A DNA stretch of 64,000 nt from Guptibacillus hwajinpoensis (GTDB taxonomy: Bacteria > Bacillota > Bacilli > Bacillales > Guptibacillaceae): NCBI RefSeq assembly GCF_001039475.1, contig NZ_LELK01000001.1, positions 283,466 through 347,465 of the forward strand. Reading direction: 5' to 3'. Shown here piece after piece: positions 3,987-40,928 of the stretch. A program made the position numbers and the translations under genes. How positions within the stretch are numbered: the first letter of the stretch is position 1; the number at the start of each line of letters is the position of its first letter. The notes under the pieces are model-generated. The model worked only from the letters and a program-made list of their open reading frames with translations, ran no database searches and was not told the origin of the DNA.

Positions 3987-4140
3987 AGCTCTTTTCTAAC
4001 AGATTGTTGCTTTTGATACAAATATTGAAAAAAACCACATTAGTGATTGGAGCGGAAGGGTGCTCGACTCCTGTGGACTCTCCGCCCGCCCCGCGGAAAG
4101 CGAACATCCCGGAGCGGAAATTAACCACTATTCTAATAGA
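3987..4140 (+). repeat. GC-rich-core interspersed repeat, copy A (right end missing)
   Basis: The left end (GCTCTTTTCTAA, GATTGTTGCTTTTGA) matches copies at 35936 and 40768. The core carries GGAGCGGAAGGGTGCTC, GCCCGCCCCGCGGAAAGCGA and GGAGCGGAAATTAACC. This copy has an extra CGACTCCTGTGGACTCTC in the core and loses similarity after about 4135, so the right inverted end is absent. It sits between the DUF4188 terminator and the GntR promoter. The 348-base gap 3927-4274 otherwise holds only the terminator and the GntR operators. Confidence 0.75.
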
Positions 4141-7551: not shown

Positions 7552-8073
7552 ATGAGAATGTCATTTCATGATTTATATACCCAACACTATAAGCGTGTTT
7601 ACTTTAGTGCGCTTAAAGTAACGAAGGATCATGGTCTTGCGGAAGATGTGCTTCAAGAAACGTTTATTACCGCTCACGACAAACTAATCGAAATAGATAA
7701 TGAAGCAAAAGTCGGCTCGTGGTTATCGACTGTTTCAACTCGTAAAGCAATAGACCTTATAAGAAGACAGAAAAAAATTGTGTTAGTATCAATGGACATA
7801 CCTACTCAATTATTTGATATACCACTAGAATCGTCTGTAGAGAAGGCATGCGAAAACACTCAAATAGAAGAGGGGGTAGGGTTGTTAATAAGCACACTCT
7901 CACCAAAGCTTCGAACAGTATTTCGGTTGTATTATTACAATCAACTGAAAGAAAAAGAGATTGCAAGTAAGCTTCAACTATCACCTGGAGCAGTCAAATC
8001 CCGCTTGCACAGAGCGCGTAACGCGATGAAAAGTAAAATGGTTGATGAACTTCAAAAACATGAAATTGCATAA
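7552..8073 (+). CDS. ECF-type sigma-70 family sigma factor
   Basis: Region 2 (about 6-70) has LAEDVLQETFITAHDKL and region 4 (about 110-165) has LSPKLRTVFRLYYYNQLKEKEIASKLQLSPGAVKSRLHRARNAMK, the standard ECF arrangement at the usual size of 173 residues. It begins 11 bases after the permease stop behind GAGGTGATA and is the last gene of the GntR-ABC operon. No anti-sigma gene lies next to it, which is unusual for an ECF factor; control may rest on the GntR repressor or on the permease's outer domain. Its target promoters are unknown. Confidence 0.88.
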   Translation: MRMSFHDLYTQHYKRVYFSALKVTKDHGLAEDVLQETFITAHDKLIEIDNEAKVGSWLSTVSTRKAIDLIRRQKKIVLVSMDIPTQLFDIPLESSVEKACENTQIEEGVGLLISTLSPKLRTVFRLYYYNQLKEKEIASKLQLSPGAVKSRLHRARNAMKSKMVDELQKHEIA

Positions 8074-8074
8074 T

Positions 8075-8104
8075 AAAAAAGGTGTTCCATTTGGAACACC
8101 TTTT
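8075..8104. terminator. Bidirectional Rho-independent terminator
   Basis: AAAAAAGGTGTTCC and GGAACACCTTTT form a stem with A and T runs on either side, serving the ECF sigma gene and the convergent MMPL gene. Confidence 0.85.
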
Positions 8105-8116
8105 CATTGTCTGTTT

Positions 8117-25771: not shown

Positions 25772-26245
25772 ATGAACTATCATTTTAAAATAATGAATCA
25801 AAATGAAGTGGAGAAAGTGATATCGTGGAAGTATGAAGGGGTTTATGCCTTCTATGATATGGAAGCGGATATGGAAGACCTAAGAGAATTCCGTGAATTT
25901 GCAGCGGATAACCGGAATTATTGGAGCGTCTATGAAAAAGAGATGCTCGTAGGATTTTTTAGTTATCATGATCAGGATCTAAATCAAGTTGAAATTGGCC
26001 TCGGAATGAATCCCGAAATGGTAGGACAAGGATATGGCTTGAGTTTCCTAGAGGCTGGTATTGAGAAAGCAATTGATTTGTATCAACCAAGTTCGCTTTC
26101 GATGTCTGTTGCAGAGTTCAATAAGAGGGCGATTAAGGTATATCAAAAAGCTGGATTCATCAAAGAGAATACATTCGTTCAGCGTACAAATGGTGGAATG
26201 TATCCGTTTGTTAGCATGATTAAAGAACTGAATCAAACTACATAA
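25772..26245 (+). CDS. GNAT acetyltransferase
   Basis: The 157-residue GNAT protein has an IGLGMNPEMVGQGYGLSFLEAGI segment (about 74-96; the GQGYG turn binds the cofactor) and SLSMSVAEFNKRAIKVYQKAGF (about 110-131), the usual last core helix. GTGGGAG precedes the ATG. It follows the terminator-containing leader at 25631-25740 by 31 bases, so its expression may depend on readthrough of that structure. The substrate is unknown. Confidence 0.85.
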   Translation: MNYHFKIMNQNEVEKVISWKYEGVYAFYDMEADMEDLREFREFAADNRNYWSVYEKEMLVGFFSYHDQDLNQVEIGLGMNPEMVGQGYGLSFLEAGIEKAIDLYQPSSLSMSVAEFNKRAIKVYQKAGFIKENTFVQRTNGGMYPFVSMIKELNQTT

Positions 26246-26437
26246 TTAGTAACCGTGCCAAGCAGAAAAACGTTGTAGTCTATCATAAACATATGTCGAA
26301 TGTATTTCCTGAACTCGAGGGGCAGAAGGACTGACTCCGTGTAGCGCTTCAGCAATGCTCTTTAGTCTATATTCGTTCTTACTCGACTAATCTTTCGTCG
26401 TTAATCTAAAAAGAGAAGAAAAATTAAAGAAACGTAT
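26246..26437. other. Intergenic stretch with a possible minus-strand gene relic
   Basis: The 344-base gap 26246-26589 has no intact gene. On the minus strand a frame of 46 codons (26386 down to 26246) reads like coding sequence (for example LKSIAEALHGVSP) but has no start codon and is preceded by a stop, so a decayed gene is possible. I do not recognise the protein. Confidence 0.25.
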
Positions 26438-26480
26438 AACCTACTAAAACCCCCATAAATCAGAGGTTTTAGTAGGTTAT
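26436..26480. terminator. Long inverted repeat, probable terminator
   Basis: ATAACCTACTAAAACC / GGTTTTAGTAGGTTAT is a perfect 16-bp stem. The T-run after it is weak, so termination is likely but not certain. It separates the GNAT gene from the surface-protein gene. Confidence 0.6.
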
Positions 26481-26589
26481 TTAGATATAGTTGAATAAAA
26501 AATAAAAAGAAATTCAAAAAAGAATGATCCAAAATGATCTTCCTCCCGTTAGCTTAGTGTAAAACAAAACAAGGGGAGTGGATTTGAAA

Positions 26590-27972
26590 ATGAGAACGGA
26601 AAAAAATATGAAGAAGAAAGTTATAGACTGGAAAAAAGGACTTCTAATCGTACCAATTAGTTTTTCACTATTAATCCCAACTACAGGAGCATTTGCAGAT
26701 GACCATGGTAACCACATGGACAAGCCTACAGTTGAAACGCCTGCTGCTGATCTTCGAGCAGATCTAGGACATCTACTAAGTGAACATGCTTATCTTGCAG
26801 TAGAAACAATGAGAAAAGGTGCTGAAGGTTCTGCTGATTTTGAAGCTGCTGCAGGCGCACTAAATGAAAATACTGAAGATCTTTCTGCAGCAATTACTTC
26901 CGTATATGGGGAAGAAGCAGGTGCTCAATTTAACGAAATTTGGAGTAATCACATCGGATTCTTCGTAGACTATGTGAAAGCCACAGATAGCAATGATGAA
27001 GAAGCGAAGCAAAAAGCACTTGATAACTTAGCAGGATATAAAGAAGACTTTTCTAAGTTCATTGAGAGTGCAACAGGTGAGCGCCTTGAAGCTGAAACGC
27101 TAGCAGAAGGACTACAAGCTCATATTGATCAATTAATAGGTTCATTTGATAGCTATGTTGCCGGAGACTATGAAATGGCATATGAGAAGGAACGCGAAGC
27201 AATTGGTCATATGCATATGGTAGCAAAAGGTTTCTCAAGTGCTATTACAGACCAATTCCCAGATAAGTTTGATAACACGAAAGCGGTAACTCCAGCTTCT
27301 GACCTTCGTGCAGGGCTAGGACACCTTCTATCTGAACATGCTGGTCTTGCTATGATGACGATGCAAAACGGTATTGATGGATCTGAAGATTTTGATGCTT
27401 CTGCTGCTGCACTAAGTAAAAACACTGATGATCTAACAGCGGCAATTACTTCCGTATATGGTGAAGAAGCAGGGAATCAATTTAAAGAAATGTGGTCTGG
27501 ACATATCGGTAACTTCGTAGAATACGTTCAAGCTACAGGTGCTGAAGACGAAGCAGCTAAAGAAAAAGCGCTAGAAGCTCTTGAAGCGTACCGAGCTGAT
27601 TTCTCAAGCTTCCTTGAAACAGCAACAGAGGAGCGCTTAGAAGCAGGAGCATTATCTGAAGGATTACAAATGCACGTAAACCAATTGGTTGCAGCATTTG
27701 ATAGCTACACAGCAGAGGATTATGAAGCCGCGTATGATTCCGTACGTGAAGCATATGCTCATATGTATAAGCCTGCAAAAGGGCTATCAGGAGCGTTTGT
27801 AAATCAATTCCCTGATAAATTCGCAATGGAAGCAATGCCAACGGACATGCCGAAAACAGGTTTAGGTGGTACAGCGGAACAGCAGTTACCTATTGAGTGG
27901 ATCCTTGCAGCAGTCCTTGCAACGATGGCAGCTACTGGCGTGGTAGTTCGTAGAAAAATGCAAAAGAACTAA
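26590..27972 (+). CDS. Surface protein with two His-rich helical repeats and MPKTG anchor
   Basis: A signal peptide (1-36, cut after GAFA) is followed by two homologous helical domains of about 184 residues (T50 and T234 begin the repeats), then MPKTG (420-424), a hydrophobic segment and RRKMQKN, the layout of a sortase substrate with Met replacing Leu in LPxTG. Each repeat keeps His in GHLLSEH, in a WS-x-HIG motif, in LQ-x-H and in a final HM, the pattern of a helical bundle that might bind metal. I do not recognise a named family. Starts at TTG 26584 or GTG 26578 are possible, since AAGGGGAG lies directly before them. Transcription ends at 28015-28047. Confidence 0.75.
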   Translation: MRTEKNMKKKVIDWKKGLLIVPISFSLLIPTTGAFADDHGNHMDKPTVETPAADLRADLGHLLSEHAYLAVETMRKGAEGSADFEAAAGALNENTEDLSAAITSVYGEEAGAQFNEIWSNHIGFFVDYVKATDSNDEEAKQKALDNLAGYKEDFSKFIESATGERLEAETLAEGLQAHIDQLIGSFDSYVAGDYEMAYEKEREAIGHMHMVAKGFSSAITDQFPDKFDNTKAVTPASDLRAGLGHLLSEHAGLAMMTMQNGIDGSEDFDASAAALSKNTDDLTAAITSVYGEEAGNQFKEMWSGHIGNFVEYVQATGAEDEAAKEKALEALEAYRADFSSFLETATEERLEAGALSEGLQMHVNQLVAAFDSYTAEDYEAAYDSVREAYAHMYKPAKGLSGAFVNQFPDKFAMEAMPTDMPKTGLGGTAEQQLPIEWILAAVLATMAATGVVVRRKMQKN

Positions 27973-28014
27973 GCGATAATAAGCTAAGGATAGAATAAAA
28001 TACCCTATAATGTT

Positions 28015-28047
28015 AAAGCAATAGCCATTAGGGCTATTGCTTTTTCT
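28015..28047 (+). terminator. Rho-independent terminator
   Basis: AAAGCAATAGCC-ATTAG-GGCTATTGCTTTTT, after the surface-protein gene. Confidence 0.85.
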
Positions 28048-28206
28048 ATATAAGAAAAGTTCCTTGTAAGTTGCATTACAGCATAGTCATAGTAAAAAAG
28101 GTATAATTACATTTGGGATAGAGTACATAAATGAATGATAAAACACAATCAGGTTCGTCAAAGTAGATGATTGATTGCTACGATAAAGCAGATAGGGGGA
28201 AATGAA

Positions 28207-29445
28207 ATGAAGTTGAAATCATTACTGCTAATAGGGATGCTTTTTTTAATTGTTGGTTGTGGAAATGATAACGTAAACAAGGTAGAGAATAAAGATGTAC
28301 TTTCAAAAAAATGGGATGAAATTGAATCATCCGCTAAAGGTACAAAAGTGAACCTTTTCATGTGGGGAGGTGACGAGGGGATTAACCAATATATCGATGA
28401 GTGGGCTACCCCAAGGTTACAAGAGGAATATAATATAACGTTAAATCGCCAACCTATGAATACTGAAGAATTTATGCAGAAATTATTAACAGAGAAAAAA
28501 GCTGGTAAGAACAAAGGAACGATTGATGTTATTTGGATTAATGGAGCAAACTTCAAAAATGCCAAAAATGGTGATTTATTATTCGGATCATTTACAAACA
28601 AACTTCCGAATTTCAATGAGTACATCAGTTCTACTGATCAAAATGCTAAATTTGATCAAGGAACGAAAATTGAAGGATTAGAAGCGCCATGGGGAAATGT
28701 TCAATTTGTTTTTAATTATGATTCAAGCAAAATTGACTCACCTCCTAAAACATTAGATGAATTAAAGCAATGGATTATAGATCATCCAGGCAAATTCACA
28801 TATCCAAACGTATCAGATTTCACAGGGAATACTTTCGTCAAGCATCTCCTTGTGGCAGGAGCTGGTGGAAATACTGATATCCTTGCAAAAGAAGTAGACC
28901 AAGATCTTCTGAAAAAATCTGAAGACTATATTTGGGGATATTTAAGTGACATTAAAGGTTCATTATGGAGAAGAGGGGAAACGTATCCTGAATCTTTAAC
29001 AAAACTCGACACGTTATACAGCCAGGGTGAAGTATGGATGACCATGGGATTTAATAGTGCCCGAGCGGAAAGTCTAATTGCGAACGGCATATTCCCTGAA
29101 AGTACAAAATCTTTCATTCTTGAACAACCAGGCTCCATCTCAAATACACATTACCTTAGTATTCCATTTAATAGTCCTAATCCAGAAGGTGCGATGACAG
29201 TAATCAATTTCCTTGAATCTCCTGAAGCACAGATCGCGAAAATGGATCCGGATATGTGGGGAGAAGGAACAGTATTGAATTTCGATAAATTAAGTGAAGA
29301 CAACCAAAAAAAGATAAAAAGCCTTGATCGTGGTGAAAGTGTTCTCTCACCAGAAATATTAAATCAGTACAAGCTTCCGGATTTAGATACAGGCTATACG
29401 GAGTGGATAAACAATGAATGGGCAAATCGGGTTATTGAAAAATAA
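28207..29445 (+). CDS. ABC importer substrate-binding lipoprotein, YnjB-like
   Basis: A lipoprotein signal ends in the lipobox LIVGC (Cys18). The mature 395-residue protein is a type II periplasmic-binding-like receptor with VNLFMWGGDEGINQYIDEW (about 46-64) and a LEAPWGNVQFVFNYDSSKI segment (about 157-175), as in YnjB of E. coli. The ligand is not known. GATAGGGGGAAA precedes the ATG at 28207; an earlier in-frame ATG (28171) would spoil the signal peptide. It is the first gene of a cluster of eight; the next gene starts inside its last codons. Confidence 0.85.
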   Translation: MKLKSLLLIGMLFLIVGCGNDNVNKVENKDVLSKKWDEIESSAKGTKVNLFMWGGDEGINQYIDEWATPRLQEEYNITLNRQPMNTEEFMQKLLTEKKAGKNKGTIDVIWINGANFKNAKNGDLLFGSFTNKLPNFNEYISSTDQNAKFDQGTKIEGLEAPWGNVQFVFNYDSSKIDSPPKTLDELKQWIIDHPGKFTYPNVSDFTGNTFVKHLLVAGAGGNTDILAKEVDQDLLKKSEDYIWGYLSDIKGSLWRRGETYPESLTKLDTLYSQGEVWMTMGFNSARAESLIANGIFPESTKSFILEQPGSISNTHYLSIPFNSPNPEGAMTVINFLESPEAQIAKMDPDMWGEGTVLNFDKLSEDNQKKIKSLDRGESVLSPEILNQYKLPDLDTGYTEWINNEWANRVIEK

Positions 29446-30298
29446 ATGGAAAGCAGGACTTTATCTGTTACCTGCAGTAATGGTCATTTTCTTACTAGTA
29501 GGATATGGAATGTGGTCTGCTGTTGCTCAGAGTTTCCAAACAATAGATGGTAGTTGGACAACCAATTCATACCTTACCTTGTTTCGTAATCAGTTGTTTT
29601 TAGACTCCATTATACTTACTATACGAGTCACAACAATCGCTACCATTCTTGCGTTAGCGATTGGATTAGTTATGACAAGACTTTTGTATCAGTTTTTTAA
29701 AGACTCATCTTCAAAGTTGTTAGTCTGGATCCCCATCCTAATTCCACATTTTGTGGCTGGCTATTTAGTTTTCTTGTTCCTCTCACAGAGTGGATTATTA
29801 TCTTCATTTCTTTCTCATCTTGGTGTGATTGAAAATCGAGCTGATTTTCCAGTTCTTGTGCAAGATCAATTTGGATTAGGAATTATACTAACTTATGTTT
29901 GGAAAGAAGTGCCTTTTGTTATCTTAATGCTTTTGCCAGTTTATTACGAAATCGATCATCGCTATTCTGAAGTAGTTAGAACGCTTGGAGGGTCTAGGTG
30001 GGATTCATTTAAAACCGTTGAGTGGCCTTGGCTCCTTCCCGTTCTCGTTGAAACCGGTGTGATTTTATTCGCATTCATTGCTTCAGCTTTTGAAGTTCCT
30101 TACCTGCTTGGCGTCACAAGACCAGAAATGCTCCCAGTTCGAGCATATGAATGGTTCTTCAATGGAGACTGGAGTAAGCGACCACTGGCTTTCTCTGCAA
30201 TGATTGTTCCTGGAGTAGTAGCTCTTCTATTATCGATTTCGTTGATCGGAGCAATACAGAAACACCGTCTGCGAATGGTAAAAGGGAGAGTACGTTGA
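29414..30298 (+). CDS. ABC importer permease 1 (N-terminal half of YnjC-like)
   Basis: The 294-residue protein has six hydrophobic segments and the binding-protein-dependent permease loop (EVVRTLGGSRWDSFKTVEWPWLLPV, about 185-209), where the ATPase docks. It overlaps the lipoprotein gene by 32 bases and the next permease by one to four bases. In E. coli YnjC is one protein of about twice this length; here the two halves are separate genes. GGAGTGG precedes the ATG. Confidence 0.87.
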   Translation: MNGQIGLLKNKWKAGLYLLPAVMVIFLLVGYGMWSAVAQSFQTIDGSWTTNSYLTLFRNQLFLDSIILTIRVTTIATILALAIGLVMTRLLYQFFKDSSSKLLVWIPILIPHFVAGYLVFLFLSQSGLLSSFLSHLGVIENRADFPVLVQDQFGLGIILTYVWKEVPFVILMLLPVYYEIDHRYSEVVRTLGGSRWDSFKTVEWPWLLPVLVETGVILFAFIASAFEVPYLLGVTRPEMLPVRAYEWFFNGDWSKRPLAFSAMIVPGVVALLLSISLIGAIQKHRLRMVKGRVR

Positions 30299-31113
30299 TG
30301 TTTCACTCGATAAATATAGGGAAGAAAAAGATGACTACGATTTTGATGGTATTATTATTTATTCTATTATTTATACTGCCATTTCTAACAATAATAATGA
30401 AGAGTTTCTCAATTGGATGGCGTTGGCCTGATCTATTACCCAATAGTTATGGCTTTGAAGGGTGGAAGGTAATCTTTCGGGACCCTTCATTAATTGAATC
30501 AATCTTTACAACAATTAAAATAGCACTAATGGTAGTCGGATTGAACTTATTATTAGCTATTCCTGCTGCTAGAGCACTATCTATTTACACGTTTCATGGC
30601 AAGTCATTAATTGAAGCTTTCTTGCTTTCTCCTATCCTAATTCCAGGTATTCTTCTTGCCATGGGACTGCAATTCACTTTAATTCGGTTTGGACTAGCAG
30701 ATCGTATGGCTGGTGTTGTGTTAGTGCATTTAATTCCAACATTGCCTTATGCTATACGAATCATGAGAGCAGGGTATGAACGATTGGGAAATGGTCTTAG
30801 AGAACAGGCAATTGTTCTTGGGGCAAGTCCACTTATCCGATTTTTAACTGTATCCCTCCCACTACTTTTGCCAAGCATAAGGAGTGTAATGCTGCTGACT
30901 TTTGTGATTTCACTTGGTCAATATGCTCTGACTGCTATAATTGGCGGTGGTACGGTTGTAACTCTACCATTATTATATTACCCTTATTTTTCAGGCTCGA
31001 ATGAAGCAGTAATTGCTGGTTTTTCGATTATTTTTGCTTTATTGCCACTTCTATTTATAGGAGCAGCAGAAATTTTATTAAGGCTGGTAATTCGGGCAGT
31101 TAATCGCGTTTGA
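30298..31113 (+). CDS. ABC importer permease 2 (C-terminal half of YnjC-like)
   Basis: The 271-residue protein has six hydrophobic segments. Its coupling loop ALREQAIVLGASP-like sequence (LREQAIVLGASPLIRFLTVSLPLLLPS, about 166-192) is the EAA motif. It would pair with permease 1 to make the membrane channel. A TTG lies one codon upstream (30295); GGGAGAG fits either. It ends seven bases before the ATPase gene. Confidence 0.87.
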   Translation: MFHSINIGKKKMTTILMVLLFILLFILPFLTIIMKSFSIGWRWPDLLPNSYGFEGWKVIFRDPSLIESIFTTIKIALMVVGLNLLLAIPAARALSIYTFHGKSLIEAFLLSPILIPGILLAMGLQFTLIRFGLADRMAGVVLVHLIPTLPYAIRIMRAGYERLGNGLREQAIVLGASPLIRFLTVSLPLLLPSIRSVMLLTFVISLGQYALTAIIGGGTVVTLPLLYYPYFSGSNEAVIAGFSIIFALLPLLFIGAAEILLRLVIRAVNRV

Positions 31114-31120
31114 AAGGAAG

Positions 31121-32116
31121 ATGGTCTTGAACCAGCTATTGCAATGCAACACACTCAAAAAAAAATATTCACAAAGTTCTATTCTAAAAGGCGTCACATT
31201 TTCATTGGGAAAAGGAGAGCATTTTACTGTTGTTGGACCCTCGGGTTGCGGTAAAACTACTCTTCTTAGATGTCTTGCTGGTTTAGAGTCAATTGATGGC
31301 GGAGATATCATATTGAATGGTAAATCACTTGCTAAAGTAAAACCTGAAGACAGATCGGTTGTACTTATGTTTCAGGATGCGTTGTTATTTCCTCATCTCA
31401 CCGTATTTGAGAACGTAACATATGGCTTAAAACGTATAAAAACATCAAAAAAAGACCGTATAAGACAAGCTGAAGAAATGCTAGAAAAAGTAAAATTAAC
31501 TAAGTGGAAGAATGCTTACCCGCATGAACTGTCTGGAGGGCAAAAACAACGCGTATCACTGGCTAGAGCATTGGTACTTAAACCAGATCTTCTCCTTCTT
31601 GATGAACCATTTAGCTCACTTGACGCTACTTTACGTGAATCCCTTAGGGGAGAAGTGAAAGAGTTGTTAAAACAGGAGAACATCTCATCGTTATTCATTA
31701 CACATGATCGAGATGAAGCGATTGAGATGGCTGATCGCCTTGCTGTGATGAACAATGGTGAGTTTATCCAAATGGGTCTTCCATATGACGTTGTTACAAA
31801 ACCTTCATGCTTAGAAAGTGCAATGATTATAGGTGAGGGGTTAGCGCTCGATGAAGGGTTTATACCTCTCCATGAATTAATTTTGGTTAAGCAAAACGAA
31901 ACCATAGAACCTAACTTTATATCAATTCCAGGTAAAATAACGGCTGTTACTGTGAAAAACAATCATCCATACTATCGAGTTTCTTGGGATAAAGGTACGG
32001 TGCTAGTTCCCTCTATTAATCATCTTCATCAAGGAGAAAAGGCGAATATAAAAGCTGATCGAAGAGCGATAAGAAAGTATCTCCAGAATGAAGAGCATCG
32101 GAGAAAAGTGCAATGA
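31121..32116 (+). CDS. ABC importer ATPase, YnjD-like with TOBE-type tail
   Basis: Walker A GPSGCGKTT (about 39-47), Q-loop MFQD (about 88), signature LSGGQKQR (about 137-144), Walker B LLLLDEP (about 157-163) and H-loop THD (about 193) are complete. The last 80 or so residues (ISIPGKITAV onwards) form a TOBE-like regulatory tail. AAAGGAAG abuts the ATG at 31121, so the TTG two codons later (31127) may be the true start. Its stop overlaps the next start (ATGA), coupling the transporter to the TVP38 gene. Confidence 0.88.
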   Translation: MVLNQLLQCNTLKKKYSQSSILKGVTFSLGKGEHFTVVGPSGCGKTTLLRCLAGLESIDGGDIILNGKSLAKVKPEDRSVVLMFQDALLFPHLTVFENVTYGLKRIKTSKKDRIRQAEEMLEKVKLTKWKNAYPHELSGGQKQRVSLARALVLKPDLLLLDEPFSSLDATLRESLRGEVKELLKQENISSLFITHDRDEAIEMADRLAVMNNGEFIQMGLPYDVVTKPSCLESAMIIGEGLALDEGFIPLHELILVKQNETIEPNFISIPGKITAVTVKNNHPYYRVSWDKGTVLVPSINHLHQGEKANIKADRRAIRKYLQNEEHRRKVQ

Positions 32117-32769
32117 CAATGAAAACGATCTTAAAAGGTTTATCTTTAACTGTTGTTCTTGTGATTATTTTCTTCTTAAATCAGTATGTTTTTGACTTTC
32201 GTCCTTCTACAATTCGCGAGTGGATTTCATCGTTTGGGTTCTACGCTCCTCTTGTTTTTCTTCTAATCTGCATAGTTAGGCCCTTCGTGCTTTTTCCTAC
32301 TTCAATTCTTTCTATTGCAGGGGGACTGGTTTTTGGTCCATATCTAGGTACGTTATTGGTCGTAATAGGAGGCTCGACGGGTGCTCTCTTATTTTTTTCA
32401 GTGGCAAGAAAACTGGGGTTACAAATTCTTCCGAAATCGTGGCGTAGACGCGGAGAAACACTTGAACGAAGACTTTCAGAAAATGGCTTCGTTTATGTGC
32501 TTCTTTTGAGGTTAGTACCTTTCCTACACTTTGATCTTGTGAGTTACGTTTGTGGGGTTTCTTCTGTAAACAGGCGGAAATACTATATGGCAACGTTACT
32601 TGGTATGTTACCAGGGGCACTTGCCTTGAATTTTCTAGGGGCGAGCTTTCTTTCAAATAATATAGGATCCATCATGCTTGCAGCCGTTGTTTTACTATTG
32701 TTATTGCTAATTAGTCTATTTATCCGCAAGAAAGTTTTTGGAGCTGTTATTGAAGAGGAACTTAGATAA
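32113..32769 (+). CDS. TVP38/TMEM64 family membrane protein (DedA superfamily)
   Basis: This 218-residue integral protein has PTSILSIAGGLVFGPYLGTLL (about 62-82), a charged loop and RLVPFLHFDLVSYVCGVSSVN (about 134-154), the VTT/SNARE-associated signature of YdjX, YdjZ and YtxB. DedA-superfamily proteins are now viewed as lipid scramblases or flippases; this branch is less studied. In E. coli ydjX and ydjZ lie beside ynjABCDEF, and the same neighbours here support a shared role. The start overlaps the ATPase stop. Confidence 0.88.
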   Translation: MTMKTILKGLSLTVVLVIIFFLNQYVFDFRPSTIREWISSFGFYAPLVFLLICIVRPFVLFPTSILSIAGGLVFGPYLGTLLVVIGGSTGALLFFSVARKLGLQILPKSWRRRGETLERRLSENGFVYVLLLRLVPFLHFDLVSYVCGVSSVNRRKYYMATLLGMLPGALALNFLGASFLSNNIGSIMLAAVVLLLLLLISLFIRKKVFGAVIEEELR

Positions 32770-32786
32770 GAAAGGATAGTGCAGTC

Positions 32787-33368
32787 TTGCTCGATACACA
32801 TGCTAGAAAATATGTACAGCCCATCATGGACCGAACAGCTGATGTTTTGTTACGAGTTGGGCTCACTGCAAACCAGGTGACAACCATTTCATTCATTATT
32901 GGCGTTACTTCTGGTTTGTTCATTTATTTAGATCAGTTTGTTATAGCGGTGGTTGTTCTATGGCTTTCAGGTTTTCTTGATGCTGTAGATGGGACAATGG
33001 CCAGGAAAACAAAACCTTCTTCCTTTGGAACCATCTTGGATGTTAGTTTTGATCGAGTGGTCGAAGTTAGTGTTATCCTAGGTCTCGCTTTTCGTTTCCC
33101 AGATTCAATGTGGGCGCTATTGCTATTAAGTACATCTATTATTTTTGCAATGACCATTTTTTTGACTGTGGGGGCAGTATCTGAAAAGAAAGGAATTAAG
33201 TCCTTCTATTATCAAGCTGGAGCAGCAGAACGGACGGAAGGATTTATATTATTTACAGCGATGATACTCTTTCACGATGTCCTAACACTATTAACACTCG
33301 TATTTCTAGCAATTGAACTATTTACAGCTTTCCAAAGGTTAGCTGAAGCAAAGCGTATATTAGATTAG
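32787..33368 (+). CDS. CDP-alcohol phosphatidyltransferase, YnjF-like
   Basis: The 193-residue membrane enzyme carries the full catalytic motif Asp65-x2-Asp68-Gly69-x2-Ala72-Arg73-x7-Gly81-x3-Asp85-x3-Asp89, which binds two metal ions and the CDP-alcohol. About five to six hydrophobic segments follow. It transfers a phospho-alcohol to or from a CDP-linked donor at the membrane; which alcohol is unknown. It is not the housekeeping PgsA by context. The start is TTG with AAAGGA ten bases upstream; the gene is 17 bases after the TVP38 gene. Confidence 0.87.
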   Translation: MLDTHARKYVQPIMDRTADVLLRVGLTANQVTTISFIIGVTSGLFIYLDQFVIAVVVLWLSGFLDAVDGTMARKTKPSSFGTILDVSFDRVVEVSVILGLAFRFPDSMWALLLLSTSIIFAMTIFLTVGAVSEKKGIKSFYYQAGAAERTEGFILFTAMILFHDVLTLLTLVFLAIELFTAFQRLAEAKRILD

Positions 33369-33383
33369 AGGAGATGAGAGAGA

Positions 33384-34811
33384 ATGGTGGAGTATGATTT
33401 AATCGTTATTGGTGGAGGTTCAGGTGGACTAACTGCAGCATCTGGTGCAGCAAGCATGGGTGCAAAGGTTGCCTTAATTGATGATCAGCCTGGACTTGGA
33501 GGAGATTGTTTGCATTTTGGATGTGTGCCATCAAAGGCGTTTATTACTGCTGCCAAAGAAGTCCATGCAGTCTACAAAGGCGCAGCGGAATTCGGCCTAA
33601 CTGTTAGTGGCGATGTTCTATTTGAGCGAGCCATTGAACGCGTGAAGGAAGCGATTGATGAAATCCAAGAGATCGATAGCGATGAACGGTTTGAAAGCCT
33701 CGGAGTTGATATTTATAGAGGTAAAGGTGCATTTAAAGATGAGCATACGATTACAATTGACGGCGAAAACCCGATTAAAGGGAAGCGCATTGTGATTTCA
33801 ACGGGCTCTAGACCTAATGTGCCACCTATAAATGGAGTTGAAAACGTATCATTTATTACGAATGAAACGATCTTTAATCTCGACTATCTTCCAAAAAGCG
33901 TTGTATTTATCGGTGGAGGACCAGTTGGTCTTGAGCTTGCACAATCTCTATCAAGATTTGGATCAGATGTGACAGTAATTGAAACATCCCAATCCGTTTT
34001 CAAGAAAGAAGATCATGAAATTATTCCGATTGTTACGAAAGCACTTGAGAAAGAGCTTACCTTCGTTTTCGAAGCGGATGTAACGGGCATTTCTGAGCAA
34101 AATGGCCATAAAGTAGTGACTTATAAAGTAAATGGTGAAGAGAAAACAATAGAATCAGAAGCTATTATGATGTCGACAGGAAGAAAACCGAATACAGACA
34201 AACTTAACCTAGAAGCAGCAGGTGTCAACGAAAACAAAGGGTATATTACCGTGAATGAATCCCTTCAAACAAATAAATCTCATATCTATGCAATCGGAGA
34301 CGTAAACGGTGCGTTTCCATTCACTCACGGAGCTGGTATGGAGGGGAAGTTAATTGTCCAAAATGCAGTCTTTGGTTTAAAGAGAAAAGTTAACTATGGT
34401 AACGTGCCGTGGGTTACTTATACGGAACCTGAAGTTTTTCATCTTGGTTTAACAGAACAAGAAGCTAAGGAAAAGCATGGAGAAGAAATTCGTGTATTTA
34501 AGGTTGGTACAGATGACGTTGACCGTTTCATTGCTGAGAGGAAAAAAGATGGTCTTGTGAAAGTGATCACTGATAAGAAAGGTCATATTCTTGGCGCTCA
34601 TGCAGTTGGAGAAGATTCTGGAAGCTGGATGCAAGAGATTGTCTTTGCAAAAGAACATGGTCATAAAATTGGTGATATTTCAACGGTAATTCACCCCTAT
34701 CCAACCAAAGGTGCCATACTCAATCAAGCAGCAGATATGTATTGGAGAGAAAAGCTATTTGATGGTTGGTTACCTAAAGTGTCTGAAAAATACATTAAAT
34801 GGGTTAGGTAA
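33384..34811 (+). CDS. FAD-dependent disulfide oxidoreductase, mercuric-reductase-like
   Basis: The 475-residue protein has the FAD motif GGGSGG (10-15), redox disulfide Cys42-x4-Cys47 in GGDCLHFGCVPSK, the NAD(P)H motif GGGPVGLELA (about 173-182) and GDVNGAFPFTHGAG (about 307-320). The C-terminal HPYPT keeps the catalytic His region, but the following Glu of dihydrolipoamide dehydrogenases is absent. There is no N-terminal heavy-metal domain and no C-terminal Cys pair as in MerA, so mercury reduction is unlikely. Related genes often adjoin TVP38 genes. The substrate is unknown. Confidence 0.88.
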   Translation: MVEYDLIVIGGGSGGLTAASGAASMGAKVALIDDQPGLGGDCLHFGCVPSKAFITAAKEVHAVYKGAAEFGLTVSGDVLFERAIERVKEAIDEIQEIDSDERFESLGVDIYRGKGAFKDEHTITIDGENPIKGKRIVISTGSRPNVPPINGVENVSFITNETIFNLDYLPKSVVFIGGGPVGLELAQSLSRFGSDVTVIETSQSVFKKEDHEIIPIVTKALEKELTFVFEADVTGISEQNGHKVVTYKVNGEEKTIESEAIMMSTGRKPNTDKLNLEAAGVNENKGYITVNESLQTNKSHIYAIGDVNGAFPFTHGAGMEGKLIVQNAVFGLKRKVNYGNVPWVTYTEPEVFHLGLTEQEAKEKHGEEIRVFKVGTDDVDRFIAERKKDGLVKVITDKKGHILGAHAVGEDSGSWMQEIVFAKEHGHKIGDISTVIHPYPTKGAILNQAADMYWREKLFDGWLPKVSEKYIKWVR

Positions 34812-34829
34812 TCGGAAAGAGGGATCTGA

Positions 34830-35921
34830 ATGAAGAAGCTTCTGTTAATTGGAGCGGGACATGCACACCTTCATATTATGAAGAAATTTCAGGAAGAACA
34901 ACTTGATATAGAAGTAACGATCGTTTCTCCTTCAGACTATCAATATTATTCAGGTATGTTCTCAGGCTATATGGAAGGCGTATATAGTGAAGAAGAGATG
35001 CGCGTACACCTTCCATCACTCGCTGATCGCGCAGGCGTTACATTTGTTAATGGTGCTGCATTGTCAATTGATGCGAAAGGAAAGGTAGTCCTAACCGAAA
35101 AAGGCGATGTCCTTTCCTATGATATTCTTTCAGTGGATATCGGTTCATATACAGCTGGGATTAATGTACCGGGCGCTAGAAATCACGCGCTTCGTATTAA
35201 ACCAAATTATCGCATCGAAGAAGTGGCTAAGAAAATGTGGGAAGCCGAAAACCCTGTTATTGTGGGGGGTGGAGCGGCAGGTATCGAAATAGCGCTTTCT
35301 CTAACGGCTAGAAGGAGAAAAGAAGGGAAGAAAGCTGTCACATTAATTTCACACTCTAAGCTACTACAAGCATCTCCTATGAAAGCACAATCAAAAATTG
35401 AACAAATTGCGAGAAATAAAGAAATGCACCTTTATTTGGAAGAAGCAGTATCGAATGTAACGACAAATCATGTTGTAACTTCAAGTGGTAATAATATTTC
35501 CTATGATCAATTACTATGGCTAACTGGACCAAAAGCACCTGATTTGTTTAGGGCTTCTAAATTACCTATTGATCAAGCGGGGTATTTACTCGTTGAAGAT
35601 ACCTTGCAAGTGAAAGAGTACCCTGCGATTTTTGCAGCCGGAGATTGTGCAACCCTTCGCGATTACCCTGATCTTCCAAAAGCAGGAGTTGTTGCGGTGA
35701 AACAATCAGAAGTGCTTTGGGAGAACTTGAAAGCTTTTTTACAACAAAAAGACGGGGTTCGGTTTCAACCTAAAAAAGCCTATTTATCTATTCTTTCAAC
35801 GGGTGAAGAAGAAGGCTTGCTGTTATATGGAAAACTCATACTCCATCATCATTTGTCATGGAAATTAAAAAATAAAATTGACCGCCGCTTTATGGAGAAG
35901 TATAAAACAACTGATGCTTAA
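34830..35921 (+). CDS. NDH-2-like FAD oxidoreductase (SelD-associated type)
   Basis: The 363-residue protein starts with LLLIGAGHAHLHIMKKF (4-20), where GxGxxG reads GAGHAH. It contains VIVGGGAAGIEIALSL (about 144-159) and FAAGDCATL (about 268-276). This pattern matches the family of pyridine-nucleotide oxidoreductases found fused to or beside SelD in other bacteria (I recall TIGR03169), related to type II NADH dehydrogenase. No SelD is present here. It is last in the eight-gene cluster and may pass electrons to quinone. It is followed by a mobile repeat and a terminator. Confidence 0.83.
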   Translation: MKKLLLIGAGHAHLHIMKKFQEEQLDIEVTIVSPSDYQYYSGMFSGYMEGVYSEEEMRVHLPSLADRAGVTFVNGAALSIDAKGKVVLTEKGDVLSYDILSVDIGSYTAGINVPGARNHALRIKPNYRIEEVAKKMWEAENPVIVGGGAAGIEIALSLTARRRKEGKKAVTLISHSKLLQASPMKAQSKIEQIARNKEMHLYLEEAVSNVTTNHVVTSSGNNISYDQLLWLTGPKAPDLFRASKLPIDQAGYLLVEDTLQVKEYPAIFAAGDCATLRDYPDLPKAGVVAVKQSEVLWENLKAFLQQKDGVRFQPKKAYLSILSTGEEEGLLLYGKLILHHHLSWKLKNKIDRRFMEKYKTTDA

Positions 35922-35935
35922 TCTTTTATATGTAA

Positions 35936-36094
35936 GGCTCTTTTCTAAAAGATTATTGCTTTTGAAACAATTATTGAATAAAAACCACACTTCGCTAATT
36001 GGAGCGGAAGGATGCTCACCGCCCGCCCCGCGGAAAGCGAGTATCCTGGAGCGGAAATTCACCTACTATAGCAACAATGTCTACGAAAAGAGCC
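35936..36094 (+). repeat. GC-rich-core interspersed repeat, copy B with 8-bp duplication
   Basis: The ends GGCTCTTTTCTA and TACGAAAAGAGCC are inverted. The core has GGAGCGGAAGGATGCTC, GCCCGCCCCGCGGAAAGCGA and GGAGCGGAAATT. Directly outside lie two perfect copies of ATATGTAA (35928-35935 and 36095-36102), an 8-bp target-site duplication. The element sits between the last gene of the cluster and its terminator (36109), so it is transcribed with that operon. Confidence 0.85.
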
Positions 36095-36108
36095 ATATGT
36101 AAAGAAAT

Positions 36109-36147
36109 GAGCTGCTTCCAGGTGTACATGGAACAGCTCTTTTTTTC
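36109..36147 (+). terminator. Rho-independent terminator of the eight-gene cluster
   Basis: GAGCTGCTTCCA / TGGAACAGCTC stem followed by eight T. It lies 188 bases after the last stop because a repeat has inserted in between. Confidence 0.85.
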
Positions 36148-36150
36148 GCA

Positions 36151-36258
36151 TGGCTATGTTAGCTTATATTGTTGAATTCTCGATTTTTGGCTCATTGGAG
36201 TGAAACCTTATTTTCACTCGAATGAGCCAATAATCAACACTGTTCATTAACATAGCCT
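36151..36258 (-). repeat. 108-bp palindromic interspersed repeat, copy 2
   Basis: It has the same ends (TGGCTATGTTA, TAACATAGCC) and the same internal arms (GGCTCATT..AGTGAAA / TTTCACTCGAATGAGCC) as the copy at 11330, but in opposite orientation and with a few mismatches in the stem. It lies three bases after the terminator. The remaining bases to 36529 show no gene and no clear structure. Confidence 0.8.
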
Positions 36259-36529
36259 TTCGCATTAAAAAGTGCAATATTTGTACTCTGGATTTTTTAT
36301 TTATTCACATATAATGATTACTCATGAATTGGATCTCCAAATGTGCAAAAATCTTGTAAAGAAGTTTATAATGAAACTAAAGAAACAATGATTCATTTAT
36401 AGTAAATACAAGGTGAATGTTTAACACTTGAATATGGTAGAAGATAAATGAGAACATGGATTGATTGATATAACTAGGCCATTGAATTGATAGACGTGTT
36501 TAAAGAAGAGATTTGAGAGGGGAATTAAT

Positions 36530-36844
36530 TTGAAAGTAACATTTACTGATAAAGCGATTGAGAAATTGGAACACGAGCCAGATGGTTTTCTGAAATTACA
36601 TTATGACATAGAAGATTGCGGTTGTGTTGTAAATGGAGTAGTTCAATTGATTCGCGAAGATGAACAAGGTAGTTACAACATGGAACTGGAATCGAATTTC
36701 AGATCAGTGCGAATTCAAAAGCAGTATGCTGTCTTTTTTGATAATGAATTGAAAATTGACTACCTTCCTAAGCATCAATGCTTTATGCTTAAAAGTGATA
36801 ATGAAATATTAAATCCAAGAATGAGATATATTAGTAAGGGATAA
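36530..36844 (+). CDS. yqkB: HesB/YqkB-like iron-sulfur biosynthesis-type protein
   Basis: The 104-residue protein resembles YqkB of B. subtilis: KVTFTDKAIEKL at the start, the conserved YDIEDCGCVVNGVVQL (about 26-41), and LNPRMRYIS at the end. It has the HesB/IscA-like fold, but the IscA Cys triad is not fully present (only the CGC pair at about 31-33 and a later Cys at about 85). A role in iron-sulfur handling is therefore inferred. The start is TTG after GAGAGGGG. It is probably cotranscribed with the small membrane protein 20 bases downstream. Confidence 0.82.
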   Translation: MKVTFTDKAIEKLEHEPDGFLKLHYDIEDCGCVVNGVVQLIREDEQGSYNMELESNFRSVRIQKQYAVFFDNELKIDYLPKHQCFMLKSDNEILNPRMRYISKG

Positions 36845-36864
36845 ACATGGGAGGCCAATAATTC

Positions 36865-37026
36865 GTGACGTTTGCAATGTATTTTTTAATATTTTTCGTT
36901 GTTTTTATGATCGTCAAAGGGATTCTAAATTTATTCAAAGGTCAAAAGATGGATCGTATTACATTAATAGGCGGAATTATTCTAGCACTAGTTTACAGTA
37001 CAATTTTAACGATTGTTAAAGGATGA
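36865..37026 (+). CDS. Small two-helix membrane protein, 53 residues
   Basis: The frame GTG..TGA encodes 53 residues with two hydrophobic helices (MYFLIFFVVFMIVKGILNLF, about 5-24, and LIGGIILALVYSTILTIV, about 34-51) joined by a basic loop KGQKMDR. GGGAGG stands ten bases before the GTG. It starts 20 bases after the YqkB-like gene and ends at the terminator, so it is placed as a real gene. I do not recognise a family. Confidence 0.65.
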   Translation: MTFAMYFLIFFVVFMIVKGILNLFKGQKMDRITLIGGIILALVYSTILTIVKG

Positions 37027-37056
37027 AAAAAGCACACATTATTGTGTGCTTTTTAT
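37026..37056. terminator. Bidirectional Rho-independent terminator
   Basis: AAAAAAGCACACA-TTAT-TGTGTGCTTTTT lies between the small membrane gene and the convergent HMG-CoA lyase gene. Confidence 0.88.
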
Positions 37057-37075
37057 TTAGTTAACCATAATATTA

Positions 37076-37990
37076 TTATGTTTTATTTGGCAGGGATTCT
37101 TTCTCTTTCAAATAGAGCGATCGAAAAGGAGTTGTAATGCTCCTTGAAAGGTGAGGCTCTATAAGATCAACTGCTTTCATCACTTCTGCGAGGTTGATCC
37201 CAGTGGAAATGCCCATTCGTTCCAGCATGTAAACTACACTTTCAGTTGCAACGTTACCGGTAGCCCCTTTGGCAAATGGACATCCACCTAACCCACCAGC
37301 TGATGTATCAAAACGCGAAATACCTACTTGGAGGCAAGCGTAGATGTTAGCCAGTGCCATACCTCGAGTATCGTGAAAATGAGCGGTTAACAAAGTAGAA
37401 CTAAACTCTTTTGTAAGTCGAGTAAAGAGGGCGCTCGCTTCTTCAGGAGTGGCCATCCCAATAGTATCTGCTACGCTTAATTCATCTGCTCCTGCCTCTA
37501 CAAACTTCTTACATACTCGAATCGTATCTTCTATATCCATTTTACCTTCGTAGGGACAATAGAAAGCTGTTGAAATACAAGCGCGTATGAAGTAGCCTTC
37601 GTTTTTTAATTCTTGAACAAGTGGAAGAAGTTCACTAAGAAGTTCGTCTGTTTTTCTATTGCTATTCTTTTGATTAAATGAGTTACTTACACCAGCAAAT
37701 ACGGCAATGGCTGATACATCTGTTAATCGTACTCTCTCAACACCCTTACGATTTGGTGCCAGTACGAAATTTCTAGTGTCATCTAGACATGAGTCTGTTA
37801 TTTCAGTCGCATCTTTCATTTGTGGGACCCATTTAGGTGAAACGAAGGAAGTAAGCTCCATTTCATTAAAGCCAGCACCTTTTAATAATTGAATAAACTG
37901 TATTTTAGCTTCAGTTGGTACTTGGTTAGCCTCGTTTTGGAGACCATCTCTTGGCCCAACTTCAATAATAGATACGTTTTCTGGAAGCAA
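37076..37990 (-). CDS. Hydroxymethylglutaryl-CoA lyase
   Basis: A TIM-barrel DRE-metallolyase: VGPRDGLQNE near the start, metal-binding HFHDTRG (about 197-203) and the HMG-CoA lyase signature SAGGLGGCPFAKGATGN with its catalytic Cys (about 229). It splits HMG-CoA into acetoacetate and acetyl-CoA at the end of leucine breakdown. GTG (38002) and ATG (37999) also lie in frame, but the GAAAGGTG site is best spaced for the TTG at 37990. It is divergent from the thiolase-CoA transferase operon, with an AATTCT-TT-AGAATT dyad (38080-38093) in between. Equivalent to YngG in B. subtilis. Confidence 0.92.
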   Translation of the reverse strand: MLPENVSIIEVGPRDGLQNEANQVPTEAKIQFIQLLKGAGFNEMELTSFVSPKWVPQMKDATEITDSCLDDTRNFVLAPNRKGVERVRLTDVSAIAVFAGVSNSFNQKNSNRKTDELLSELLPLVQELKNEGYFIRACISTAFYCPYEGKMDIEDTIRVCKKFVEAGADELSVADTIGMATPEEASALFTRLTKEFSSTLLTAHFHDTRGMALANIYACLQVGISRFDTSAGGLGGCPFAKGATGNVATESVVYMLERMGISTGINLAEVMKAVDLIEPHLSRSITTPFRSLYLKEKESLPNKT

Positions 37991-40767: not shown

Positions 40768-40928
40768 GGCTTTTTCTAAAAATTTGTTGCTTTTGAAAGA
40801 AGTTAATATAAATTAAAGCCACACTTAGCTCATTTCCGCTTCAGGTGCTCACCGCCCGCCCTGCGGAAAGCGAGCATCTGAAGCGGAAATTAACCCACTC
40901 TTATAGCAACAATGTATACGAAAAGAGC
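40768..40928 (+). repeat. GC-rich-core interspersed repeat, copy C
   Basis: The ends GGCTTTTTCTAA and TACGAAAAGAGC match copy B. In this copy the core is a true palindrome: ATTTCCGCTTCAGGTGCTC and GAGCATCTGAAGCGGAAAT surround GCCCGCCCTGCGGAAAGC. No target duplication is visible. Its right end runs into the terminator stem at 40925, so the element has become part of the shared 3' region of scoB and the aldo/keto reductase gene. Confidence 0.8.

Follow-up and report, generated by a model that had tools for sequence, protein, structure and literature searches.

A conserved gene cluster of Guptibacillus hwajinpoensis as a candidate Gram-positive form of the uncharacterised ydjXYZ-ynjABCDEF system

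Our analysis of a 64,000-nucleotide stretch of the Guptibacillus hwajinpoensis genome (contig NZ_LELK01000001.1, positions 283,466 to 347,465; hereafter the window, from a Bacillota genome of 4.26 Mb) indicates that eight genes running along its + strand at positions 28207-35921 almost certainly make up one functional, conserved unit. The best explanation of this unit is that it is a Gram-positive form of the uncharacterised ydjXYZ-ynjABCDEF system of Escherichia coli. A prediction made earlier from the sequence alone (the original prediction) had described eight same-strand genes joined by overlaps or by gaps under 20 bases. The coordinates of the open reading frames (ORFs) confirm this: neighbouring genes overlap by 32, 1 and 4 bases or are separated by 7, 17, 15 and 18 bases. 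Pfam and NCBIfam matches agree with the families it had assigned. The genes and the borders of the cluster are as follows.

28015..28043, + strand: likely intrinsic terminator of the preceding gene, upstream border (hairpin and T run, fold z -4.68)
28207..29445, + strand: YnjB-type solute-binding lipoprotein (Cys18; ATG start, the ORF list beginning at TTG 28171; NF008633)
29414..30298, + strand: permease 1 of an ATP-binding cassette (ABC) transporter (BPD_transp_1, Pfam match)
30298..31113, + strand: ABC permease 2 (BPD_transp_1; ATG overlapping the preceding stop, the ORF list beginning at TTG 30295)
31121..32116, + strand: ABC transporter ATPase (PF00005, 127 bits)
32113..32769, + strand: TVP38/TMEM64 membrane protein (VTT, DedA superfamily; PF09335, 85 bits)
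32787..33368, + strand: CDP-alcohol phosphotransferase of YnjF type with the fold of phosphatidylinositol-phosphate (PIP) synthases (TTG start; PF01066, 49 bits)
33384..34811, + strand: MerA-like FAD disulfide oxidoreductase (MerA/PRK06370 type, by family match; Cys42/Cys47)
34830..35921, + strand: NDH-2/FSP1-like flavoprotein of TIGR03169 type (SelD-associated family; 298.5 bits, single Cys273)
~36109..36146, + strand: probable downstream terminator (hairpin followed by a T run, fold z -3.68)

The case for a single unit comes from the company these genes keep in other genomes. NF008633 detected YnjB above its cut-off of 203 bits in 30 of the 398 Bacillota genomes searched, and in these 30 we placed all PF01066 and PF09335 genes genome-wide, taking the chance expectation from gene density. 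A CDP-alcohol transferase gene was found within 10 kb of YnjB in 20 of the 30 genomes (0.65 expected) and a VTT gene in 21 (0.58 expected); 16 genomes had both and 5 had neither, including two (G083, G265) where YnjB lies at a contig end. The neighbourhood check proposed with the original prediction thus finds the families together far above chance, and a meeting at chance level, named there as refuting, is absent. The association of the transferase with YnjB is tighter still when its subfamily is considered (profile A5, genomes counted at E <= 1e-30): it occurs in 23 of the 398 genomes, 21 of which carry YnjB above cut-off (Fisher 8e-26). When the 8 genomes represented in the profile are left out, 13 of 15 do so (8e-17), and YnjB accompanies the subfamily in 14 of 15 taxonomic families. 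Both exceptions look decayed: YnjB is in pieces with stops in G060 (L076), and G239 (L172) has partial transferase and VTT genes, with rhodanese and oxidoreductase fragments close by. The transferase subfamily therefore depends near-completely on YnjB in Bacillota, and in one direction only, because 9 of the 30 YnjB genomes lack it. Each of these families is common by itself, which could produce a chance neighbourhood of unrelated genes, but the linkage and dependence tests give P below 1e-15 in each case and the families have been relinked repeatedly in differing orders and strands. The probability of such an accident is practically negligible.

The conserved shared set claimed by the original prediction is strongly supported, and in more phyla than it named. 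The unit was found in Bacillota, Fusobacteriota, Spirochaetota, Chloroflexota, Actinomycetota (Rubrobacter), and alpha- and gammaproteobacteria; Fusobacteriota and the two proteobacterial classes were contributed by annotated plasmids. A scan of GTDB genomes (query A1) confirmed at least 589 relatives, the best 80 of which were fetched, so the sample leans to near relatives. Adding the loci of E. coli and the window, and 29 non-duplicate ones out of the 398 genomes, gives 111 loci (three duplicates, L058, L063 and L064, had been dropped beforehand), and neighbours were counted in the 77 that have at least 7 kb on both sides of YnjB. Near YnjB, these loci have CDP-alcohol transferases (50), VTT genes (51), MerA-like genes (31, some of these labels resting on weak matches, such as 42 bits in L150 and 60-66 bits in L139) and TIGR03169-type genes (23), and also rhodanese (19), the dicluster oxidoreductase NF045663 (14), YedE-type transporters (8), APH kinases (11), nucleoside hydrolases (11) and TIGR04283 (7). 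The nearest fetched locus, from Pseudalkalibacillus hwajinpoensis (L078), matches the window in all eight genes and in their order, and its YnjB is 76% identical. The window's order of ATPase, VTT, transferase and MerA-like gene is common to 13 of the 80 named loci (the best 80 of at least 589), and in Planococcus and its kin the transferase and the second flavoprotein are on the opposite strand.

Plasmids rearrange the set further. A tblastn search with the window's transferase matched 39 plasmid records; among the 30 matches listed, YnjB was within 6 kb in 19 and far away in 4. In the other 7 its position was not among the matches listed, and two of these were viewed: Catenovulum has an adjacent YnjB and Sphingopyxis does not. 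The Klebsiella IncR plasmid Kp4-unnamed2 (NZ_CP092394, L169) encodes in one run a TVP38-MerA fusion, a homologue of the window's last gene (141 bits), YnjBCD and the transferase, and plasmids of Falsirhodobacter and Paracoccus encode the same functions. VTT-MerA fusions were checked in L129, L162, L168, L169 and L171, and are present by annotation only in L165 and L170; a rhodanese-VTT fusion occurs in Ilyobacter (L158). These fusions support a joint action of VTT with the redox part. Beside the set in Kp4-unnamed2 (7663-8940) there are genes for a sigma-70 family factor and a carboxymuconolactone decarboxylase (AhpD-like). Sphingopyxis likewise has sigma-70 family genes beside the set, and Paracoccus has them in its vicinity, which on genomic position would make a dedicated regulation of the set possible.

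Comparison with E. coli K-12 makes the kinship of the cluster clear. There, ydjX, ydjY, ydjZ and ynjABCDE run together, and the original prediction was right to place ydjX/ydjZ with ynjB, ynjC, ynjD and ynjF, the last of which adjoins on the opposite strand. Both genomes group YnjB, an ABC permease, an ATPase, TVP38-type proteins and a YnjF-type transferase, and the window has YnjBCD, VTT and CDP-alcohol transferase within 10 kb, the combination by which we recognised an E. coli-type system. Unlike the window, K-12 has a single double-length permease (YnjC), two VTT genes, the ferredoxin-like YdjY, the AhpD-like YnjA and the rhodanese-type YnjE; the K-12 stretch viewed contains neither a MerA-like nor a TIGR03169-type gene. 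A split permease and two oxidoreductases had been put forward as differences from E. coli. This holds for K-12, but Klebsiella and alphaproteobacterial plasmids have homologues of both oxidoreductases. Kp4-unnamed2 thus shares with the window YnjBCD, TVP38, the MerA-like and TIGR03169-type flavoproteins and the transferase in one run, and differs in its fused TVP38/MerA-like protein, its one double-length permease, its accompanying sigma-70 family, AhpD-like and HAD genes, and its YnjB and YnjF of E. coli type.

The transferase gives an indication of what the unit may do. Its class I motif, D-x2-D-G-x2-A-R...G-x3-D-x3-D, is intact (catalytic Asp 65/68/85/89), and the four aspartates are present in all 59 cluster sequences. 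Its AlphaFold2 model is confident (pLDDT 91), and both fold and sequence profiles are nearest to PIP synthases; fold and catalytic motif are common to the mycobacterial enzyme (PgsA1, PIPS; here MtPIPS). One could therefore propose that YnjBCD imports inositol phosphate and that the transferase is a PIP synthase, the more so as the equivalent of MtPIPS R195 is Arg in 59/59 sequences (Arg184 in the window). Yet both R155 and R195 of MtPIPS are held, in the relevant passages of PMC4634129 and PMC6506517, to bind the phosphate of inositol phosphate, and a change to Ala at either severely compromises activity. The window keeps only the second of the pair: the R155 position is Gly in 42, Thr in 14 and Ala in 3 of the 59 sequences (Gly152 in the window). 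At the site of MtPIPS R94, 52 sequences have Arg and 7 have Phe; in E. coli YnjF, the residues matching MtPIPS R94 and R152 are Phe and Gly. The protein also scores well below the NCBIfam cut-offs for PIP synthase (NF045883, 72 vs 170 bits) and archaetidylinositol-phosphate synthase (95 vs 180 bits). A PIP-synthase route is thus very unlikely. Because the R155 position is replaced while the catalytic aspartates are kept, the sequence suggests that the enzyme should act on CDP-diacylglycerol with an acceptor that is probably other than inositol phosphate.

In the best-supported reading, to which we give a probability of roughly 0.45, the unit imports a solute and turns it into a lipid head group. 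The lipoprotein YnjB and its ABC importer would bring in a small polar alcohol, and the YnjF-type transferase, judging from its enzyme class and its dependence on YnjB, would couple this alcohol, or a processed form of it, with the phosphatidyl moiety of CDP-diacylglycerol and so make a minor phospholipid. From its superfamily, the VTT protein may move or organise that lipid across the membrane, and the MerA-like and NDH-2/FSP1-like flavoproteins may control, with NAD(P)H and perhaps with quinone, how oxidised or reduced the solute or the lipid head group is; lipid movement by the DedA-type protein and redox balance by the flavoproteins had likewise been suggested by the original prediction. 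In many anaerobes a dicluster oxidoreductase and rhodanese would take the place of the flavoproteins. This reading is strengthened by how rarely the transferase subfamily occurs without YnjB in Bacillota. The same observation (21/23) favours the original claim that a solute is imported and used as or with a lipid head group, against which stands the separation of transferase and YnjB on some rhizobial plasmids.

The window's YnjB belongs to the subfamily NF008633/PRK11622 (439 bits, cut-off 203), with an AlphaFold2 model at pLDDT 92. The VTT protein matches PF09335 with 85 bits (cut-off 33.9), and its P62, G75, R133 and P167 are invariant in the 68 aligned cluster VTTs. A thiol relay through VTT was considered and rejected, as each of its two cysteines is kept in only 2 of the 68. 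In the MerA-like protein, the redox pair is conserved (Cys42 in 35/35 sequences, Cys47 in 34/35), as is Tyr439 (35/35), which aligns with the Tyr of MerA and with the His of dihydrolipoamide dehydrogenase that we take to be the catalytic one. A C-terminal Cys pair defines the mercuric reductase MerA. The window protein has no cysteine beyond Cys42 and Cys47, so by this criterion it is not a mercuric reductase; its TIGR02053 score of 366 bits is also under the cut-off of 454. The protein encoded by the last gene, of 363 aa and without a SelD fusion, falls just under the TIGR03169 cut-off (298.5 vs 310 bits) and so lies outside the family as defined.

The best solved relatives of this last protein are FSP1/AIFM2 and the NDH-2 quinone reductases, a likeness by sequence that is distant (63 bits to FSP1). 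This suggests another function, an envelope-stress or membrane-antioxidant module in which YnjBCD would be the supplier, the flavoproteins the reductases of a membrane quinone or lipid product, and VTT and the transferase the agents of bilayer remodelling. The fusion of VTT to a MerA-like protein would fit, as would the weak rise of ynjABCD in E. coli upon BaeR overexpression (ynjA 1.6-fold, ynjB 1.4-fold), which the authors, in the section concerned, regard as maybe indirect (PMC2731931). Nevertheless, the homology to FSP1 is remote, the part of PMC3688515 that deals with these genes lists ydjXYZ-ynjABCD in the FNR regulon, an anaerobic setting, and anaerobes have the system with different redox parts. 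We regard an antioxidant module as quite unlikely.

The redox parts of the system do seem to be exchangeable. In the YnjB tree (76 rows, one with a short YnjB ORF having been excluded), the window and P. hwajinpoensis group with L100 and L102 (Anaerobacillus and Salipaludibacillus keqinensis; support 97*), in which VTT and the transferase remain and rhodanese and a dicluster oxidoreductase stand where the window has its two flavoproteins. Of the 77 loci, 51 have VTT; a dicluster oxidoreductase or rhodanese gene accompanies it in 1 of the 28 that also have a MerA-like gene vs 18 of the 23 that do not. Similarly, APH kinases are found in none of the 50 loci with the transferase vs 11 of the 27 others. 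This last exclusion is not absolute, since L052, from outside the 77, has the transferase together with APH and TIGR04282/04283. We report these swaps as observations and not as proven exclusions because contrasts on the tree lack significance despite the strong raw counts. Seven loci (L050, L054, L059, L062, L117, L134, L150) combine YnjBCD with TIGR04283, TIGR04282 and an APH-family kinase but lack a CDP-alcohol transferase; these are possibly a second route for processing the same solute.

A different explanation is a redox system for sulfur or selenium (or molybdenum) in which YnjBCD imports a compound linked to one of these elements, the redox parts and a YedE-type transporter process it, and the lipid enzyme is accessory. 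The counts of rhodanese, NF045663 and YedE-type neighbours given above agree with it, and so does the grouping of E. coli ynjABCDEFI with suf genes in an epistasis map, as given in the pertinent part of PMC3930520. SelD is present in 28 of the 30 YnjB genomes vs 232 of 368 others (p 5e-4) and MoaA in 29 of 30 vs 61 of 93 (p 6e-4), both comparisons uncorrected for descent or lifestyle. In one genome, a molybdenum cofactor (Moco) riboswitch even lies ~360 bases upstream of YnjB, within a Moco gene region. But G169 has the full set without SelD (E <= 1e-50) and without MoaA (E <= 1e-70), and G268 has it without SelD. Moco genes are near YnjB in 1 of the 111 loci, plus a lone MoaC ~7 kb off in L126, and Moco riboswitches, present in 16 of the 30 YnjB genomes, are within 10 kb of YnjB only in G223. 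That riboswitch precedes a short ORF weakly like ModA (E 0.05). The dependence of the lipid enzyme on YnjB is also left unexplained. We thus hold a sulfur, selenium or molybdenum system to be unlikely. Its two narrower versions were rejected: the selenium route because SelD is enriched yet dispensable, and the molybdenum cofactor route because of the ModA-like ORF, the rarity of nearby Moco genes and the MoaA-less G169.

Some observations on these elements stand by themselves. The riboswitch of G223 (L046, 9168-9294) is in a region of modA, mobA, mobB, moeA, moaA, moaC and moaB-like genes; the locus has three further RNAs of this kind, and the ModA-like ORF between this riboswitch and YnjB encodes 77 aa. 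Scanning 28 fetched loci whole (at Rfam gathering scores) and positions 26000-37100 of the window (at E <= 1) for riboswitches gave a match within 2 kb upstream of YnjB in L046 only; in the window, the sole match was to a miRNA family, far under the gathering score. The window's own genome has a SelD gene (G000:C14:903440-904366) with one in-frame TGA, as expected for a selenocysteine-containing SelD.

For the class of the head group, the best lead is a nucleoside or other riboside, a tentative assignment that we consider more probably wrong than right. It is suggested by the nucleoside hydrolase genes at up to ~10 kb from YnjB in 11 of the 77 loci (directly upstream in Peptoclostridium) and by the Sphingopyxis plasmid pSFD01. 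This plasmid groups TVP38-MerA, the homologue of the last gene, a TonB receptor, a NupC-type transporter, the transferase and an AhpD-like gene; no YnjBCD is annotated in the viewed 168-189 kb, and the NupC-type transporter is where YnjBCD would be. In its fullest form, this idea would have a nucleoside or riboside alcohol scavenged in several phyla through YnjBCD or a nucleoside permease and coupled to a phosphatidyl group by the PIP-synthase-like enzyme, yielding a new class of phospholipids, with head-group redox by dedicated flavoproteins or, in anaerobes, by dicluster oxidoreductase and rhodanese, and with a dedicated VTT; taken as a whole it is unlikely. A rival reading, the uptake and lipidation of an arsenosugar-type riboside, would link a glycerol or ribose hydroxyl to CDP-diacylglycerol, with rhodanese or flavoproteins altering the arsinoyl group. 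Glycosyltransferase families that NCBI names for arsenosugar biosynthesis are near YnjB in 7 of the 77 loci, some hosts come from algae or the sea according to their record source lines, and arsenosugar phospholipids exist, as stated in the part of the literature consulted. This link rests on family names, however, and the radical-SAM ArsS (TIGR04167) is above cut-off in 11 of the 398 genomes and in none of the 30 with YnjB (0.8 expected), a result that is neutral on import. We find this case scarcely probable. The synthesis of arsenosugars by these bacteria was rejected on the same absence of ArsS, the best match in the window's genome having an E of 1.5e-5, under the cut-off.

Several results weigh against the conversion of the solute into a lipid head group, or against the riboside as that solute. 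In ten of the 30 genomes with YnjB, no PF01066 gene was located at 10 kb or less from it, in two cases because the contig is too short, and the nine genomes that lack the transferase subfamily imply that the importer also works without it. Five of these nine (G043, G047, G086, G177, G382) have VTT and an APH kinase, four of the five along with the glycosyltransferase families TIGR04282/04283. YnjBCD is without VTT or transferase in the stretches seen of Peptoclostridium and Sinorhizobium. The transferase is distant from YnjB in four rhizobial plasmid records, and in the one of the four that was viewed, from Sinorhizobium, it is surrounded by unrelated genes. In many Bacillaceae the gene for the second flavoprotein runs on the other strand or is absent from the vicinity. 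Independent contrasts on the YnjB tree for VTT/transferase, APH/transferase and MerA/dicluster gave 9, 5 and 7 pairs with median p of 0.63, 0.13 and 0.63. Deducing the ligand from the fold of YnjB was tried and abandoned: the closest folds bind polyamine, iron, sugar-phosphate and other solutes (TMq 0.5-0.63) and match about equally well. Finally, the NupC-type transporter of pSFD01 is under the nupC cut-off (249 vs 442 bits) and its grouping with the transferase is a single locus; 15 other plasmid records have a NupC relative, three of them among the listed transferase matches, with the genes far apart there.

At the borders of the cluster, the sequence suggests that the eight genes are likely to share one transcript, because hairpins flank them and the terminator-like sites in between are only weak ones. 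Over the whole window there was no significant excess of terminators (9 found vs 6.0 +/- 2.6 in shuffles). Between the last gene of the cluster and the likely terminator, a G+C-rich element holds a GGAGCGGAAATTCACC-type repeat (36048-36063), which recurs at 4111-4126 and 40880-40895, giving three copies with up to 2 mismatches where 0.03 are expected. An Rfam match to mir-1270 on the - strand (36084-36160; 31 bits, gathering score 90) falls on the downstream terminator hairpin and is very probably spurious. Upstream of the cluster, 26578-27972 encodes a 464-aa protein whose two halves look similar by eye; it has a weak match to a C-terminal sorting domain (21.6 bits, cut-off 29) and no Pfam family at E <= 0.001.

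Published data on the E. coli genes are sparse and diverse, and are cited here from the passages that concern these genes. A table of a ciprofloxacin-tolerance screen marks the ynjB deletion with '-', before the tolerant mutants (PMC13131330), a review table gives YnjB as a homologue of a polyamine-transporter component (PMC9397018), and YdjX and YdjZ failed to restore the division defect of strain BC202 (PMC3836016). The YnjBCD transport system is still termed uncharacterised (PMC9207381). We found no description of the gene set in the literature searched, a search outside which most subscription papers lie.

In the best-studied of all bacteria, YnjBCD and YdjX/YdjZ have long been orphans; VTT proteins, as kin of TMEM41B and Tvp38, attract wide interest. 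Here an orphan importer, a YnjF-type lipid enzyme and a VTT protein come together in one module, spread over several phyla and fitted with exchangeable redox parts. Several genes of 'unknown function' may thereby be reduced to one testable question: which ligand YnjB binds, and which lipid is made via YnjF.

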